From a virus: a DNA stretch of 42,447 nucleotides. Of the stretch, positions 9,075 through 30,476 are shown piece by piece. The stretch's first letter is position 1. Every line of letters starts with the position of its first letter. Position numbers and translations under genes: made by a program. Location: IMG/VR virus record IMGVR_UViG_3300044707_000425, positions 1-42,447 of that record; one strand, 5' to 3'. The notes under the pieces were generated by a model that saw only the letters and a program-made list of their open reading frames with translations, did not search any database and was not told where the DNA came from.

Positions 9075-9094
9075 ATGGGCCCATAACATGAGGG

Positions 9095-17939: not shown

Positions 17940-18890
17940 ATGACAACCACTACCAGGGCCCGCAAAGCTCGCAAGCCATACGACGGCCCCAGTCCAGAAG
18001 AAAAGCTCTGTTCTGCACTGGTGCAGCTACTTGAGCAGGGCACCAACCCTTGGCGCCGTGAGTGGGCCGTTTCCGGTGCCCAAGGCCATCACCGCAACTT
18101 GCTGACCGGTGCGGCCTACCGGGGCTCTAACCCTGCAGTCCTCGAAATGTGGGCCGCATGCCGTGGCTACTCCCTGCCGCTGTGGCTGGGCGTGGCACAG
18201 GCCAAGGCCCAGGGCTGGTATCCGCGCAAAGGCTCGCAGGGCTGTTACGTGGTGCGGCCACAGCTCAACAATCGGGAACAGCAAGACGAGCAGGGCAAGC
18301 CGGTGACCGGGCCCGATGGCACCCCGCTGATCAGTGCATGGATCAGTTACAAACCCGCTTGCGTGTTCAACGTGCAGGACCTCCAGGGGGAAGGCCTTGA
18401 TGCTGCGATTGCCGCGGCCGTGGGCACCATCACCGTTAAGCCTGAGCCTGAGAGGTTGGCAGCGGCTGAGGCCGTGCTTGGGGCCTGGGAGGTGCCCACC
18501 GTGTGGGCTGGCGATCGGGCTTTCTACCGGCCCTCCGTTGATCAGATCACGATGCCCACCCGGGCCCAGTTCGCCACTGCTGAGGGGCTCTATGCGACCT
18601 GGGCCCACGAGCAAGCCCACAGCACCGGCCACAGCAGCCGGCTTAACCGTGAGATGGGCAGCACCCATGGCAGCGATGCCTACGCCAGAGAGGAACTGGT
18701 CGCCGAGCTCGCCGCCTTCCTGATCTGTAGCCGGCTGGAGATCAGCAGCAGCACCGAAAACCACGCGGCCTATCTGAGGCACTGGGCCCGGGTGCTCAAG
18801 GAGGGGCCCAAGGTGCTGTTTAAGGCCTTGGGGCAGGCATCGGCCGCGGCAAACGCCATCTGTGGGCCCGACGTGATCGAGGAGGCCTGA
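17940..18890 (+). CDS. ardC: ArdC-like antirestriction protein, 316 aa
   Basis: The N-terminal domain (~residues 15-150) matches the ArdC ssDNA-binding domain: 'LLEQGTNPWRREW', 'NLLTGAAYRGSNP', 'GWYPRKGSQGCYVV' and 'VFNVQDLQGE'. The C-terminal domain is a zincin metallopeptidase with HEQAH at residues 223-227 and 'AREELVAELAAFLI' after it. ArdC proteins inhibit host restriction and bind incoming ssDNA. Location among the first genes fits protection of entering DNA. A copy of the palindrome (18013-18026) lies inside its 5' end. The next small gene is read from an SD at the end of this one. Confidence 0.85.
   Translation: MTTTTRARKARKPYDGPSPEEKLCSALVQLLEQGTNPWRREWAVSGAQGHHRNLLTGAAYRGSNPAVLEMWAACRGYSLPLWLGVAQAKAQGWYPRKGSQGCYVVRPQLNNREQQDEQGKPVTGPDGTPLISAWISYKPACVFNVQDLQGEGLDAAIAAAVGTITVKPEPERLAAAEAVLGAWEVPTVWAGDRAFYRPSVDQITMPTRAQFATAEGLYATWAHEQAHSTGHSSRLNREMGSTHGSDAYAREELVAELAAFLICSRLEISSSTENHAAYLRHWARVLKEGPKVLFKALGQASAAANAICGPDVIEEA
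18013..18026. promoter_or_regulatory. Palindrome H inside ardC
   Basis: CTGCAC-TG-GTGCAG, perfect 6+6 palindrome within the coding frame. TGTTCT precedes it, as at copies F and G. This could be a chance product of CTG/CAG codons. Confidence 0.3.
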
Positions 18891-20320: not shown

Positions 20321-20638
20321 ATGGATCTACGTGAGTTGGAACGGGCTTTGGCGGCTTTTGCCGTGCTCTCCCCGACCTCGTTACCCCTGCACCACGCCCA
20401 GGTCTTCCTCTATGTGGCTCGGCATGGCCCATGCAGTTACGAGGCCCTGGAGGAGGCCCTAGCGCTGTCCAACTCGACTGTCTCCCGCACCGTCCACGCC
20501 CTCGGTGATCAACACCGCAAGGGATACGACGGTCACGGCCTGCTTGAGCTGGCCCGCGACCCTACAGAGGGGCGCCGCTACATCGTCAGACTCACCGCCA
20601 GGGGCAAAGCCCTGCTCAGGCAACTCGAAGGGCTTTGA
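20321..20638 (+). CDS. Winged-helix MarR-like regulator 2, 105 aa
   Basis: Typical MarR/winged-helix layout: 'LHHAQVFLYVARHGPCSYEA' (helix 2), 'LALSNSTVSRTVHALG' (turn and recognition helix) and the wing 'DPTEGRRYIVRLTARGKALL' with the usual 'L-T-x-x-G' ending. It probably represses or activates phage genes. The nearest site is the perfect CCTAGG palindrome just upstream, which suggests autoregulation. It lies directly before the integrase. A candidate for the phage's lysogeny regulator, although no CI/Cro-type protein was seen to compare with it. Confidence 0.7.
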   Translation: MDLRELERALAAFAVLSPTSLPLHHAQVFLYVARHGPCSYEALEEALALSNSTVSRTVHALGDQHRKGYDGHGLLELARDPTEGRRYIVRLTARGKALLRQLEGL

Positions 20639-20687
20639 CCCCCAACTTGCCTCCCAACCACCACCACCACCCCCAACTTGCCTCCCA
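20639..20687 (+). repeat. 18-bp direct repeat flanking CA-rich leader 5 before int
   Basis: CCCCCAACTTGCCTCCCA occurs at 20639-20656 and again at 20670-20687, separated by CCACCACC units (CAACCACCACCACCAC starts at 20655). It may be a regulator or integrase arm site, or a simple duplication of the leader. Confidence 0.6.
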
Positions 20688-21685
20688 TGACAGGCTCTGT
20701 CCGCAAAGCTGCTGATGGCAGCTGGGTTGCTGATGTCACCATCAACGGCACCCGAAGAACTGGCAAATGCAAAACCCGTAGTGAGGCCCTGGCCCGCAAG
20801 CGTGAGCTGCTCGAGCTGCTGATGCAGCGCGAGGCCAGGCCCGCTGCCAGGCCGGTGTTCACCATGAAGGAATCCCGGGCTCTCTCGATGCGGATCCGCT
20901 GGGCTGGGCTGGCCTACGAGCGCACCGCTGCCATCTACAGCGCTGAGGCCGTGGCCTACTTCGGCGATCACATGCCCATCAGCGAGATCACGGCGGCCCT
21001 GGTGGATGGCTGGCGGCAGGTGCTGCTGGCCAAGGGCAACCGCCCCAGCACCGTCAACCGGAAGGTGTCAGCCATCCGGGCCATGCTCGCTGATGCCCAT
21101 CTCCACGGTCACCTGCAAGAGGTGCCCCGCATGCCGCAGCAGCTGCGCATGGTCAACACCAAGGACAGGGTGATCAGCGACCACGAGCGCGATGGGTTCT
21201 GCGCCTACTTCCGCCAGGTGGGCGAACCCGCCGCGGCCGATCTGCTGGTGTTCCTGCTGGAGACCGCTTGCCGGTGGGGCGAGGCCGAGCGCCTCAAGGG
21301 TCAGGACGTGGACCTGGCCAAGGGCAGGGTGACCTTCTGGACCACCAAGAACGGCAAACCCCGATCGGTGCCGCTGACCCGCCGAGCGATCGAGGCCCTG
21401 CAGCCTCACTTGCCGGCGATCCCCACCCATCGGGTCTGGCCCTTCAAATACACCCGCTACCAGCACCTGTTCAACACCGCCAAGGCCATGCACGGGCTGG
21501 CTGATGATCGGGCCCTGTCGATCCACACCACCCGCCACACCTGCGCCTCGAAGCTGGCCAGCCGGGGGATCCCGCTGCACCAGTTGATGGCCTACGGGGG
21601 ATGGACCAGCCTGGCCTCAGTGCAGCGCTACCTGCACCTGCACACCGATGCGCTGGCCGCCTGCGTCAACGCCCTGGAGGATTGA
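20687..21685 (+). CDS. int: Tyrosine-family integrase, 332 aa
   Basis: All catalytic positions are visible: Arg196 in 'ACRWGEAERLKG', Lys221 in 'TKNGKPRSVPL', His280-x-x-Arg283 in 'HTTRHTCASKL', Trp306 in 'YGGWTS' (in the place of His) and the nucleophile Tyr315 in 'VQRYLHL'. The N-terminus has an arm-binding-like beta region ('GSWVADVTINGTRRTGKCKT') and a SAM-like core. It would integrate the phage at a host site, most likely the tRNA-Leu(UAA) fragment at 22469. ATG 20687 was chosen over TTG 20678. No excisionase was recognised. Confidence 0.95.
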   Translation: MTGSVRKAADGSWVADVTINGTRRTGKCKTRSEALARKRELLELLMQREARPAARPVFTMKESRALSMRIRWAGLAYERTAAIYSAEAVAYFGDHMPISEITAALVDGWRQVLLAKGNRPSTVNRKVSAIRAMLADAHLHGHLQEVPRMPQQLRMVNTKDRVISDHERDGFCAYFRQVGEPAAADLLVFLLETACRWGEAERLKGQDVDLAKGRVTFWTTKNGKPRSVPLTRRAIEALQPHLPAIPTHRVWPFKYTRYQHLFNTAKAMHGLADDRALSIHTTRHTCASKLASRGIPLHQLMAYGGWTSLASVQRYLHLHTDALAACVNALED

Positions 21686-22346: not shown

Positions 22347-22468
22347 TCAGGCCTTGTTGTGGACGCATCCACTGCCCCCGAAAAACTGCGTCGGCAGCCA
22401 AGCAGACTGCTTGAAGCAGACCCCGACGCAGACCCTCAAATCCCCGAGATGCCCTATGGTTACTGAGC

Positions 22469-22515
22469 GGGGGCATGGCGGAATGGGAGACGCAGCGGAC
22501 TTAAAAACCGCTGGC
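22469..22515 (+). other. Candidate attP: 5' half of tRNA-Leu(UAA)
   Basis: The sequence reads as the first half of a bacterial tRNA-Leu: acceptor GGGGGCA, TG, D-stem GCG with loop GAATGGGAGA and CGC, anticodon stem GCGGA, loop CTTAAAA (anticodon TAA), then ACCGC. The last stem pair is A-A. Variable arm, T arm and 3' acceptor are missing, so this is not a working tRNA. It lies about 780 bp downstream of int. Marine P-SSP7 is reported to carry a tRNA-Leu match near its integrase. Strong attP candidate. Confidence 0.7.
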
Positions 22516-22522
22516 ACTATTT

Positions 22523-22587
22523 CCACCCCTGCAGAGCAATCGTTTTCCCTTGCTGCAGCACGTTGCTAGCCAGCTCTGCAGGGGTGG
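22523..22587. repeat. 15-bp perfect inverted repeat next to attP
   Basis: CCACCCCTGCAGAGC (22523-22537) and GCTCTGCAGGGGTGG (22573-22587), 35 bp apart, beginning 8 bp after the tRNA fragment. It may be an integrase/excision factor arm-site pair, or a large RNA hairpin before the RNA polymerase gene. Confidence 0.6.
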
Positions 22588-22623: not shown

Positions 22624-25035
22624 GTGAAAACCGAAATCTCCGCGTCCACCCCTGCCCACGAGCGCCAGAAGCAGACGGAATCGCGGGAGAAAGAGCGGGC
22701 CAAATGGGATGCGATCAACGCCCGGGCCAGGCTCAAAGCCCAGGGCAGGGAGAGCGTCACCGAGTACGGCCGAGCCCTGTTCCAGCAGCACGCCGAGACC
22801 GTGACGGTGGCCTTGGGCCTGCTGCTGGAGGAGCTGCTGGCCAACCCGCACAAGCCCGGCCCGCATTTCGCCGCCTGGCCCCTGCTCTTGGGCGTCACCA
22901 ACCGGGGCCCCCGATCGCTGGCGGCCATCGCCCTGGGGGTGGTGATCGACCAGATCAGCCAGAAGCCTGAGCAGCGCAGGCTGGCCGGCGCCATCGGCTC
23001 GGCCCTCCATAGCGAGCTCAAGGCCGGGCGGGTGGAGAAGATCAGCCCCGATCTGCTGCGGCTGATCAAGAAGCGGCGTGGTGCCCGCGCCCTGAGCAAC
23101 AGCAAGCTGCTCGCCCAGCTGCGCCTCGATGCCAGCGGCTGGACACCCCTTGAGCGGGTGGAGGTGGGCCAGCTGTTGCTGCAGGTGATCCTGGCCAACA
23201 CCGATCTGCTGGAGGTGGTGACCACCACCCGGAACGGGCGGCCACGGCATGTGGTGCGGCCCACCCCAGCGGCCCTCGAGGTGGTGCAGACCAACCCACC
23301 CCGGCCGATGCCGGCCCGGCGCCTGCCGATGCTCGTGCCGCCCCGGCCCTGGGAGGGAATGCACGGCGGCGGGCACCTCGACAACAAACAGCCGCTGGTG
23401 CGCAGCCGGGCCAGCCTGGACCTGGCACACCTGAATGCCAAGGCCCTGGCCCCGGTGCTGGCGGCCGTCAACATCCTGCAGCGGCAGGAGCTGCGGGTGG
23501 ATCCAGGGATGGTCGAGCTGCAGCGCTGCGCCTGGGATCACAACATCCGCGGGCTGTTCCCGGTGATGCGCGACCCGATACCGGAACCGCCGCGGCCGAC
23601 CGAGCTGATCGGGCCCGAGGCCTACAAGGCATGGCAGCAGCAGCGCCTCAAGGCCCAGCACGACCGCTGCAGCGGCGCCCGTGAGCGCACCCGGATCGAG
23701 CAGGCCCTGCGGCAGTGCGAGGAAGTGGCTGGGCTGCCGGTGTGGTTTGCCTACTGCTCAGACTTCCGCGGGCGGATCTACACCAGCAACCGCTACGCCA
23801 CCCACCAGGGCCCCGACTGGGAGAAGGCTGCGATCACATTTGCCCATGGCGAGCAGTGCTCGGTGGAGGCGTTCGAGTGGCTGCTGAAGGCGGCGGCCGG
23901 GCATTACGGGGTGCGGGGCAACTGGGAGGGACGGGCCGCCTGGGGCCGGCAGCACCTGACCGAGATGTGCGCCGCGGCCGAGGCCCCGCTGGATCGGCTT
24001 GAGCTGTGGCGTGATGCGAAAGACCCGTGGCAATTCCTGCAGCTGTGCCGGGCCATCGCCCACCAGGTGGCTGAGCCCAACAGCCGCTGCACCACACCGG
24101 TGCGGCTGGATCAGACCTGCAGCGGGATCGGGATTGCCTCTGCCCTGCTGCGGGATCGGCGCCTGGCACGGCTCACCAACATCACAGGCAAAAGCCACAA
24201 GGATCTCTATGGCCACATCGCCGAGGAGATGCAGCGCCTGCTGCGGCTGGACCTGAGCAACGGGCTTGAGCGTGAGCAGAAGCAGGCCGAGTTCTGGCTG
24301 CAGTTCGGCATCGACCGCAGCCTGTGCAAGGCCCCGGTGATGACCACCATCTACGGCGCCCAGTTCCTGGGCGTCGTTGATGGGCTGGTGGCTGTGCTGG
24401 AAGAACGCCAGGCCGGGCTGCACATCAGCCAATGGTCGAGCGGCTACCTGGCCCCGGCCCGCTACCTGGCTCGCAAGTTCGGGGTGCTGCTGGGCAGCGA
24501 GCTTAAGAGCTGCCTCGACTTGCAGGCCTGGCTGCGCACGATCAGCCGGAAGGTGCTGGCCGCCGGCCACCGGCTGCAGTGGACCAGCCCGATGGGCATG
24601 CCGATCTGGCTGGGCGACCAGCTGGATCCGCGCAGCACCGTGGCCACCCTCACCCATGGCAGCCGCCGCTGGCAGACATGGAAGGACGAGGCCCAGGACG
24701 GCGAGTTGTCGGCCCGCACCACCAACCGGGCGATCACGGCAAACGTTGTCCACTCGTTCGATGCGGCGCTCTGTCAGCTGTTGATCTCCAGATGTGGGGA
24801 GCAAGGGATAGGGCTACTACCCAATCACGACTGTTTTGCGACGATTCCAGCACACGCCGGCTGGCTGCATCACACCCTGCATGACGAGCTGCGCGGGCTC
24901 TATGCCACCGACTGGCTGGCCGAGATGGCGGAGGAGATCCGTTCTGCTGCAAGGCTTAAGCAGTTGCCAGCCCCGCCGAGCGTGGGGGACCTGCGCCACG
25001 GGGAGATCGGCCAGAACCCGCACTGCTTTTCCTGA
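22624..25035 (+). CDS. T7-type single-subunit RNA polymerase, 803 aa
   Basis: Catalytic motifs align with T7 RNAP: motif A 'VRLDQTCSGIGIASALLRD' with Asp496, motif B 'RSLCKAPVMTTIYG' with Lys569 and Tyr577 at the T7 spacing, and motif C 'NHDCFATIPA' with Asp736. 'SDFRGRIYTSNRYATHQG' is also typical. It would transcribe the phage middle and late genes from its own promoters; the palindrome family is the best promoter candidate in the window. T7 RNAP has 883 aa, so this is slightly compact. Start GTG 22624 has no SD and is the only start upstream of the conserved part. Confidence 0.97.
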   Translation: MKTEISASTPAHERQKQTESREKERAKWDAINARARLKAQGRESVTEYGRALFQQHAETVTVALGLLLEELLANPHKPGPHFAAWPLLLGVTNRGPRSLAAIALGVVIDQISQKPEQRRLAGAIGSALHSELKAGRVEKISPDLLRLIKKRRGARALSNSKLLAQLRLDASGWTPLERVEVGQLLLQVILANTDLLEVVTTTRNGRPRHVVRPTPAALEVVQTNPPRPMPARRLPMLVPPRPWEGMHGGGHLDNKQPLVRSRASLDLAHLNAKALAPVLAAVNILQRQELRVDPGMVELQRCAWDHNIRGLFPVMRDPIPEPPRPTELIGPEAYKAWQQQRLKAQHDRCSGARERTRIEQALRQCEEVAGLPVWFAYCSDFRGRIYTSNRYATHQGPDWEKAAITFAHGEQCSVEAFEWLLKAAAGHYGVRGNWEGRAAWGRQHLTEMCAAAEAPLDRLELWRDAKDPWQFLQLCRAIAHQVAEPNSRCTTPVRLDQTCSGIGIASALLRDRRLARLTNITGKSHKDLYGHIAEEMQRLLRLDLSNGLEREQKQAEFWLQFGIDRSLCKAPVMTTIYGAQFLGVVDGLVAVLEERQAGLHISQWSSGYLAPARYLARKFGVLLGSELKSCLDLQAWLRTISRKVLAAGHRLQWTSPMGMPIWLGDQLDPRSTVATLTHGSRRWQTWKDEAQDGELSARTTNRAITANVVHSFDAALCQLLISRCGEQGIGLLPNHDCFATIPAHAGWLHHTLHDELRGLYATDWLAEMAEEIRSAARLKQLPAPPSVGDLRHGEIGQNPHCFS

Positions 25036-29695: not shown

Positions 29696-29790
29696 AAGCA
29701 ACTGTTAGTACAGATGGATCCGCTGGCGCCGACGGCGGGCAGCAGCGGTGTCAGCAACATCCAACCCTGCATTTGAATCTGAAGCCATGA
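29692..29790 (+). pseudogene. Truncated copy of the 30798 gene, 32 aa
   Basis: The first 27 bp nearly repeat the start of the gene at 30798 (MKATVSTDG here, MKATISADG there; 25 of 27 bases). After that the frame diverges into an unrelated Gln/His-rich tail and stops inside the next gene start. Best explained as a remnant left by duplication or insertion of the segment between the two copies. Confidence 0.45.
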
Positions 29791-30476
29791 CCACTTACAC
29801 CACTGATCAGCTGCAAGAGATTTTGAAAGCGCACCAAAAAGGCGCAAGAGCCGATTTCAGCGACGCCGATCTCAGCGGCGCCAATCTCAGCGACGCCTAT
29901 CTCAACAACGCCAATCTCAGCGACGCCAATCTCAGCGGCGCCAATTTCAGCAACGCCTATCTCAGCGGCGCCAATCTCAGCGACGCCTATCTCAGCGGCG
30001 CCAATCTCAGCGACGCCAATTTCAGCGGCGCCAATCTCAGCGGCGCCATTCTCATCGGCGCCAATCTCAGCGGCGCCAATCTCAGCGGCGCCGATCTCAG
30101 CGGCGCCATTCTCAGCGACGCCTATCTCAGCGGCGCCAATCTCAGCGGCGGCGATCTCAGCGGCGCCGTGGGGCTCCCCATTGCAACCGATGCCCCGGCG
30201 CGATTGCTGGCCGTTGCTCAAGCTGCGCTTGCATCACATGATGCGCTGGCAATGGATAAATGGCACACATGCGAAACGACGCACTGCATTTGCGGGTGGG
30301 CCGAGCATCTCGGCGGCCCATTGGCCCGGCTAATTATTAAGTGCCATGGCAATGATACAGGAGGATTGATGCTGCTGGGCGTGGAAGCACACGCGCATTT
30401 TTACTCCAGCAATGAAAAGGCGCGTGCTTTTCTACAGTCGGTTATCGACAGGCCTGAAGCAGAGGTGCAGCCATGA
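29787..30476 (+). CDS. Pentapeptide-repeat protein, 229 aa
   Basis: Residues ~22-127 are about 21 tandem copies of A-(N/D/Y/I)-L-S-(G/D/N), the A(D/N)LxX fold that forms a right-handed beta helix. The N-terminus is 'MTTYTTDQLQEILKAHQKGA'. After the repeats there is a Cys-containing alpha-helical domain ('HTCETTHCICGWAEHLGG'). Some pentapeptide proteins mimic DNA and protect or inhibit gyrase. Here such a function is only a possibility. At DNA level the repeats are near-perfect 15-bp units, which suggests recent expansion. Confidence 0.75.
   Translation: MTTYTTDQLQEILKAHQKGARADFSDADLSGANLSDAYLNNANLSDANLSGANFSNAYLSGANLSDAYLSGANLSDANFSGANLSGAILIGANLSGANLSGADLSGAILSDAYLSGANLSGGDLSGAVGLPIATDAPARLLAVAQAALASHDALAMDKWHTCETTHCICGWAEHLGGPLARLIIKCHGNDTGGLMLLGVEAHAHFYSSNEKARAFLQSVIDRPEAEVQP
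29850..30168 (+). repeat. 15-bp tandem repeats within pentapeptide gene
   Basis: About 21 units of the type ctcagcggcgccaat, many identical. Such arrays can gain or lose units by slippage. Confidence 0.8.

Follow-up and report, generated by a model that had tools for sequence, protein, structure and literature searches.

A partial tRNA-Leu gene between int and the RNA polymerase gene

The window analysed here is a phage record of 42,447 bases. It is a T7-like genome with a single-subunit RNA polymerase (RNAP) gene and a tyrosine integrase gene (int) upstream of it. Between these two genes, 3′ of int, lies a partial tRNA-Leu that corresponds to the first half of the gene, as in P-SSP7 (PMC8776855). 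The features of this region are listed below.

20321..20638, + strand: MarR-like winged-helix regulator, directly before int (Pfam MarR_2, 29 bits against a cut-off of 27; PHROG transcriptional regulator)
20678..21685, + strand: tyrosine integrase (PF00589, 74 bits; PHROG integrase, E 1e-47)
22359..22372, no strand assigned: P-arm palindrome GTGGACGCATCCAC, candidate protein-binding site upstream of the half, conserved in most relatives
22399..22433, no strand assigned: three GCAGAC direct repeats in the P arm
22469..22506, + strand: 5′ half of tRNA-Leu(UAA), putative attP core, with acceptor strand, D arm, 5′ strand of the anticodon stem and loop
22469-22475, + strand: acceptor strand GGGGGCA, followed by T8 and G9
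22478-22493, + strand: D arm with stem GCG/CGC, followed by A26
22495-22499, + strand: 5′ strand of the anticodon stem, GCGGA
22500-22506, + strand: anticodon loop CTTAAAA, anticodon UAA
22507-22511, + strand: 3′ strand of the anticodon stem, ACCGC, with one A-A mismatch at 31-39; the tRNA ends after it
22495..22511, + strand: anticodon stem-loop, predicted crossover site with CTTAAAA as the 7-nt overlap; identity among relatives stops past here, and the stem is shared by the different targets
22523..22537, + strand: motif A, CCACCCCTGCAGAGC, conserved 5′ arm of the inverted repeat
22573..22587, − strand: motif B, inverted copy of motif A, 3′ arm
22624..25035, + strand: T7-like single-subunit RNAP gene, directly 3′ of the att region (PF00940, 164 bits)
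22645..22655, + strand: third copy of the motif, direct, TCCACCCCTGC

Positions within the tRNA follow the general tRNA numbering. The integrase appears intact, as the catalytic R, K, HxxR, W, and Y residues are all visible in its translation. The nearest isolate is the freshwater Synechococcus phage S-SRP02 (MW822601), whose integrase and RNAP are 82% and 66% identical to those of the window; the window integrase is only 23% identical to that of P-SSP7. A MarR-family gene is annotated ahead of int in both S-SRP02 and P-SSP7. By analogy with S-SRP02, we infer the host and the habitat of the window phage. S-SRP02 carries the half tRNA and motifs A and B and differs from the window in the D loop and in the sequence past the core. 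A text search of the paper describing this isolate (PMC8790148) returned nothing for attP, att site, or prophage.

The initial annotation had read this fragment as the 5′ half of a tRNA-Leu(UAA) with the loop CTTAAAA, located 3′ of int, and sequence, homology, and recurrence all confirm it. ARAGORN found no complete tRNA in the window. The Rfam tRNA model matches from position 22469 at 23 bits, under its cut-off of 29, as expected when only half a tRNA is present, and the half matches annotated cyanophage tRNA-Leu genes at E 9e-7. At the same position in relatives, its local-alignment score is 30–37, whereas other 450-nt stretches of the window phage score 9 at the median and 13 at the 95% point; judged by these comparisons, the half is far beyond chance. 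The D-loop variant of the window, AATGGGAGA, is one base shorter than that of the complete cyanophage tRNA-Leu genes in contigs L054 and L118. In both of these contigs, a tRNA-Thr(UGU) gene is adjacent to the complete tRNA-Leu(UAA) gene, and no relative of int or RNAP was detected. For attP sites of this class, a host match would consist of an exact identity of about 39–42 nt with a host tRNA gene. An exact scan of 84,980 genomes with the window's own D loop, a pattern that proved too narrow, matched only Thermosipho and Rokubacteria and no cyanobacterium. In other cyanobacteria, the tRNA-Leu(UAA) gene commonly carries a group I intron at the anticodon. As the putative attP core runs beyond the intron position, intronless host targets are suggested.

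The half tRNA recurs at the same place in relatives

Relatives were found by int and by RNAP homology, which makes these searches independent of the tRNA. The same half was present at the same place, in the int–RNAP interval, in S-SRP02, in P-SSP7, and in dozens of IMG/VR contigs, among them contigs retrieved via int or RNAP. The IMG/VR contigs are fragments, and several of the loci share one contig. A pattern scan for the half returned 88 stretches, nearly all of which are halves followed by RNAP; because sets found by a pattern are biased by that pattern, conservation figures were taken from the int- and RNAP-found set. Sixteen distinct attP sites were extracted from these loci, with CATGGCG, CGC, and CTTAAAA required in the extraction, and in them the stretch from the acceptor strand to CTTAAAA is invariant except at acceptor position 4 and in the D loop. 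The D loops differ in length and at positions that vary among tRNAs, and they keep A14, A15, G18, G19, and A21. Directly past the loop, the sequences diverge. Conservation of the 5′ half together with divergence on the 3′ side is expected if the 5′ half is the only part that has to function in a rebuilt tRNA, with the host providing the 3′ half.

One could imagine that the fragment is the decayed remnant of a translation-aiding phage tRNA gene that lost its 3′ half, and complete tRNA-Leu(UAA) genes are indeed found in some cyanophage contigs (L054 and L118). However, decay would produce scattered breaks, whereas dozens of phages share one break point, exact to the base. The retained half, moreover, varies only at acceptor position 4 and at the variable D-loop positions, adjoins int in most genomes where int is present, and has been replaced in some relatives by halves of other tRNAs that share its stem (see below). 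We consider a decayed gene extremely improbable.

Two variant arrangements were seen among the relatives. In a subgroup with AGCGCT after the core (L090, L096, and relatives), the half still stands before RNAP, and int and the MarR gene are located 6–9 kb upstream in inverted orientation; the half and int therefore need not adjoin. Several relatives of this AGCGCT type have no int beside the half. In L017 (G011:C1:16711-17686), the integrase frame is broken by several TGA codons and the half tRNA is retained.

Conserved motifs flank the core

The 15-bp inverted repeat that the initial annotation placed after the half is real and perfect (22523-22537/22573-22587), with 35 nt between its arms. 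Among 42 distinct phages, motif A begins 16 nt past the loop in 37, and motif B is found 66 nt past the loop in 27 and 77 nt past it in 7, the extra 11 nt being about one helical turn. Pairing between motifs A and B is often broken, with 10.6/15 positions paired within a phage and 9.6/15 between phages. Two copies of a conserved protein-site motif account for the inverted repeat better than a repeat specific to att would, and the motifs on both sides of the core are probably binding sites for proteins of the recombination complex. An intrinsic terminator was rejected because there is no T run, an RNA hairpin because base pairing is not kept across relatives, and microRNA-like Rfam hits over the repeat as chance matches to a palindrome.

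Elements resembling the A/B motif are not confined to this site. A semi-palindromic element was matched 45 times in the window, compared with 19 matches expected, and 38 times in S-SRP02, compared with 18 expected. It reads about CTSCACNNGTGSAG, and several copies precede transcription units; copies are found at 9094, 12177, 18012, 25089, 36483, 37665, and other positions in the window and at 20, 1528, 6032, 27240, and 28435 in S-SRP02. This element may be a phage promoter, or it may serve as operator for a dimeric regulator, for which the MarR-like protein is one candidate. Motifs A and B could accordingly serve the RNAP gene as promoters or operators instead of being arm sites of the integrase, a reading to which we give somewhat less than an even chance. 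The similar elements elsewhere in the two genomes, several of them before transcription units, speak in its favor, whereas the fixed distances of motif A (16 nt from the loop in 37/42) and of motif B (66 or 77 nt in 34/42) fit a recombination complex. Both integrase arm sites and regulator or promoter sites are possible for A and B.

The position of the half also raises the possibility of a tRNA-like RNA element in the RNAP leader, in which the half tRNA and the hairpin would control RNAP expression. The half is always about 150–260 nt upstream of RNAP (of the RNAP match in relatives) on the coding strand, the region, folded as DNA, is more stable than shuffled versions of itself (z −2.9), and A–B pairing is slightly better within a phage than between phages. 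Against such an element, the pairing is often broken, the stem has no T run after it, and the fixed core spacing, together with a class that is one helical turn longer, points to DNA–protein geometry. In addition, the tRNA part is on the other strand in the phage with a tRNA-Tyr target (see below), so that no tRNA-like RNA would be made there. We find a leader element highly improbable.

Close relatives carry parts of other tRNAs

Loci found by int or RNAP that scored no Leu half were read for other targets. In six of them (L014, L029, L031, L032, L035, and L039), this place is occupied by the 5′ half of a CAU-anticodon tRNA, either methionine tRNA or lysidine-isoleucine tRNA. The loop of this type is CTCATAA, and its anticodon stem is the same as in the Leu type, with one or two changes in L035 and L039. 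At the same place again, L027 and L028 have a tRNA-Tyr(GUA) remnant in reverse orientation, comprising its 3′ part; in this type, seen in one phage, a complete tRNA-Thr accompanies the 3′ half of tRNA-Tyr, and the anticodon stem is the same. A second pattern scan returned 26 CAU-type stretches, some of them in a distant lineage (RNAP about 28% identical) that has both CAU-type and Leu-type members. The stem GCGGA/TCCGC is thus common to the Leu, CAU, and Tyr targets and the 7-nt loop differs, which would fit an Int that contacts the two halves of the stem and uses the loop as overlap.

The clearest case of exchange is the pair L133 (Leu) and L162 (CAU), which share 96.1% identity across 3,884 bp in the region of int, att, and RNAP. 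The two integrases are identical at 330/332 residues, yet the loci carry different tRNA halves, with 15/26 bases equal in the replaced part directly before the stem. A tree built from 68 integrases requires seven or more changes of target type. From these comparisons, this phage family seems to change its landing site by swapping a short tRNA core, and such retargeting may follow the anticodon stem that the targets share. Relatives with other targets, which the initial annotation would have counted against its reading, speak only against tRNA-Leu as the sole target of the family.

Retargeting by core exchange has precedents, both engineered and natural: changes in the attP core of Ms6 redirect its integration (PMC1762012), and related integrases of an actinobacteriophage phamily use several tRNA targets (PMC10865867). 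What we describe is therefore a variant and not a new principle. Those cases involve 3′ parts or short cores, whereas the exchanges described here concern 5′ halves and include one reversal of orientation. New here are the near-identical phages with exchanged halves and the CAU and Tyr targets beside Leu. Such pairs are naturally near-isogenic, differing in integration target and sharing the integrase, so that the att core alone suffices for studying target choice. The family around this site is in this respect more useful than the window's own site.

A contig with an integrated layout at tRNA-Tyr

Integrated relatives, which the initial annotation had proposed to look for, were not seen for the Leu type, as none of the Leu halves in the pattern scan extends to a complete tRNA beside int. 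A likely case is provided by the Tyr type, in contig 3300044621_001214 (G002; 41,324 bp). At its start are most of a tRNA-Thr(GGU) and a 3′ part of tRNA-Tyr that runs into the P′ arm and RNAP. The contig continues with phage genes in the order of the window, rotated and opened exactly at att, and ends with the MarR gene, int, the P arm, a complete tRNA-Thr, a complete tRNA-Tyr, and 38 more bases. The phage genes are enclosed by the two copies of an exact direct repeat of 126 bp. Judged from this arrangement, the contig is likely an integrated prophage in tRNA-Tyr with an attL…attR layout, although 126 equals k − 1 for k = 127 and the contig could be a chimeric join. The short contig of L027, from another sample, begins at nearly the same place. 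The phage of G002 supplies the 3′ part of tRNA-Tyr and the whole tRNA-Thr, which leaves the 5′ half of tRNA-Tyr and its upstream region host-derived.

A second contig considered as a prophage with host flanks (G014, 58.6 kb) was rejected, as it appears to be two related phages joined. The second of these (L197, G014:C1:56951-58115) encodes a distant integrase; after it, on the opposite strand, comes the 3′ part of a sequence resembling tRNA-Leu(UAA).

Comparison with known attP sites and proposed integration

Elements that carry the 5′ fragment of their target tRNA, instead of the 3′ part that the initial annotation had called usual, are a minority in Islander (159, compared with 3760 with a 3′ fragment; PMC4383910). 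Among marine T7-like cyanophages, the 5′ half is not unusual. All their attP sites described by Shitrit et al. (PMC8776855) match the first half of tRNA-Leu. In S-TIP37, PCR and deletion experiments showed that loss of int or attP abolishes integration at tRNA-Leu, and P-SSP7 also integrates there; in both phages integration is rare and transient, and no lysogens were found (PMC8776855). P-SSP7 has the same order as the window, namely MarR-like gene, int, 5′ half of tRNA-Leu, and RNAP. The window differs in belonging to a freshwater lineage with a distant integrase, and its relatives also use CAU tRNA and tRNA-Tyr, in contrast to the marine sites of that study, which were all tRNA-Leu. The window site is thus a further, freshwater member of a known marine kind of attP. 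The archaeal pTN3-like integrases (PMC8371274) offer a more remote parallel: the element carries the 5′ half of the tRNA, and the restored tRNA is expressed from the element side. These elements are unrelated, and their integrase promoter reportedly drives the tRNA, which could only be presumed for the window. tRNA-dependent lysogeny combines a short core that does not rebuild the tRNA with a complete cognate phage tRNA (PMC10865867), whereas the core here is a whole 5′ half in a genome that lacks a complete tRNA.

We are confident that, in this freshwater T7-like cyanophage from the S-SRP02 lineage, the fragment is the attP core of the neighboring tyrosine integrase. The attP-type site put forward in the initial annotation is supported by its position, its conservation, its synteny, and the clean core swaps, all of which are directly observed in the sequences, as is the integrated-layout contig at tRNA-Tyr. 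Int most likely recombines the anticodon stem-loop, at predicted crossover points, with the stem GCGGA/TCCGC forming two inverted core-binding sites and the 7-nt loop forming the overlap. In the window phage, the strand exchange would presumably involve a host tRNA-Leu(UAA) gene. On the integrase-proximal (P-arm) side, the copy carried by the phage runs from the first tRNA base to the anticodon loop. The int-side junction would then combine the phage P arm, the phage 5′ half, and the host 3′ half into a complete tRNA, and the RNAP-side junction would place the host promoter and the host 5′ half ahead of the P′ arm and the phage RNAP gene. Of the proposal that the phage provides the start, and perhaps the promoter, of the restored tRNA, the first part is supported and the second is conjectural: no host-type promoter was found upstream of the half on the + strand of the window, and the relatives have no common −10 box there. 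With no recognizable host-type promoter before the half, the restored tRNA would depend on phage transcription. We hypothesize that this dependence could make integration costly and transient.

The initial annotation had argued from int and the winged-helix regulators for a temperate lifestyle. This does not follow, as the marine relatives, among them P-SSP7 with the same set of genes, integrate transiently without forming lysogens. A classical temperate phage, with stable lysogeny at tRNA-Leu under a repressor such as the MarR-like protein bound to palindromic elements close to transcription units, would agree with the presence of int, the MarR-like gene, the enriched semi-palindromic element, and the prophage-like contig of a relative. 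However, stable lysogens do not arise in marine relatives that share this layout (PMC8776855), S-SRP02 was grown as an infecting isolate whose latent period is about 24 h (PMC8790148), the MarR-like gene is also found in P-SSP7, and integration would put RNAP 3′ of the host tRNA promoter. Stable lysogeny at tRNA-Leu thus appears unlikely.

A more speculative view, which we put forward with little confidence, is that the 5′-half orientation acts as a promoter swap. Transcription from the host tRNA-Leu promoter would pass through the displaced 5′ half and reach RNAP; integration would thereby start the lytic program and destabilize the lysogen, and the essential tRNA would rely on transcription from the int side. 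In the reverse, Tyr-type orientation, with the 3′ half and tRNA-Thr on the phage, the host promoter would stay on the tRNA and stable prophages could result. The att core would then be a cassette that switches the state of the phage with the integrase unchanged. If true, the promoter swap would explain why T7-like cyanophages integrate without lysogenizing. How the tRNA is oriented with respect to the RNAP gene offers a testable reason for this behavior, and G002 is a candidate integrated relative for testing it.

Two other genes of the window were noted. At 17940-18890, upstream of the MarR–int block, lies a gene for an ArdC-like protein of the anti-restriction type, with ArdcN and zincin-like metallopeptidase domains. 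At 29748-30476, the window encodes a pentapeptide-repeat-like protein with many A(N/D)LS repeats, which is unusual for a T7-like phage.
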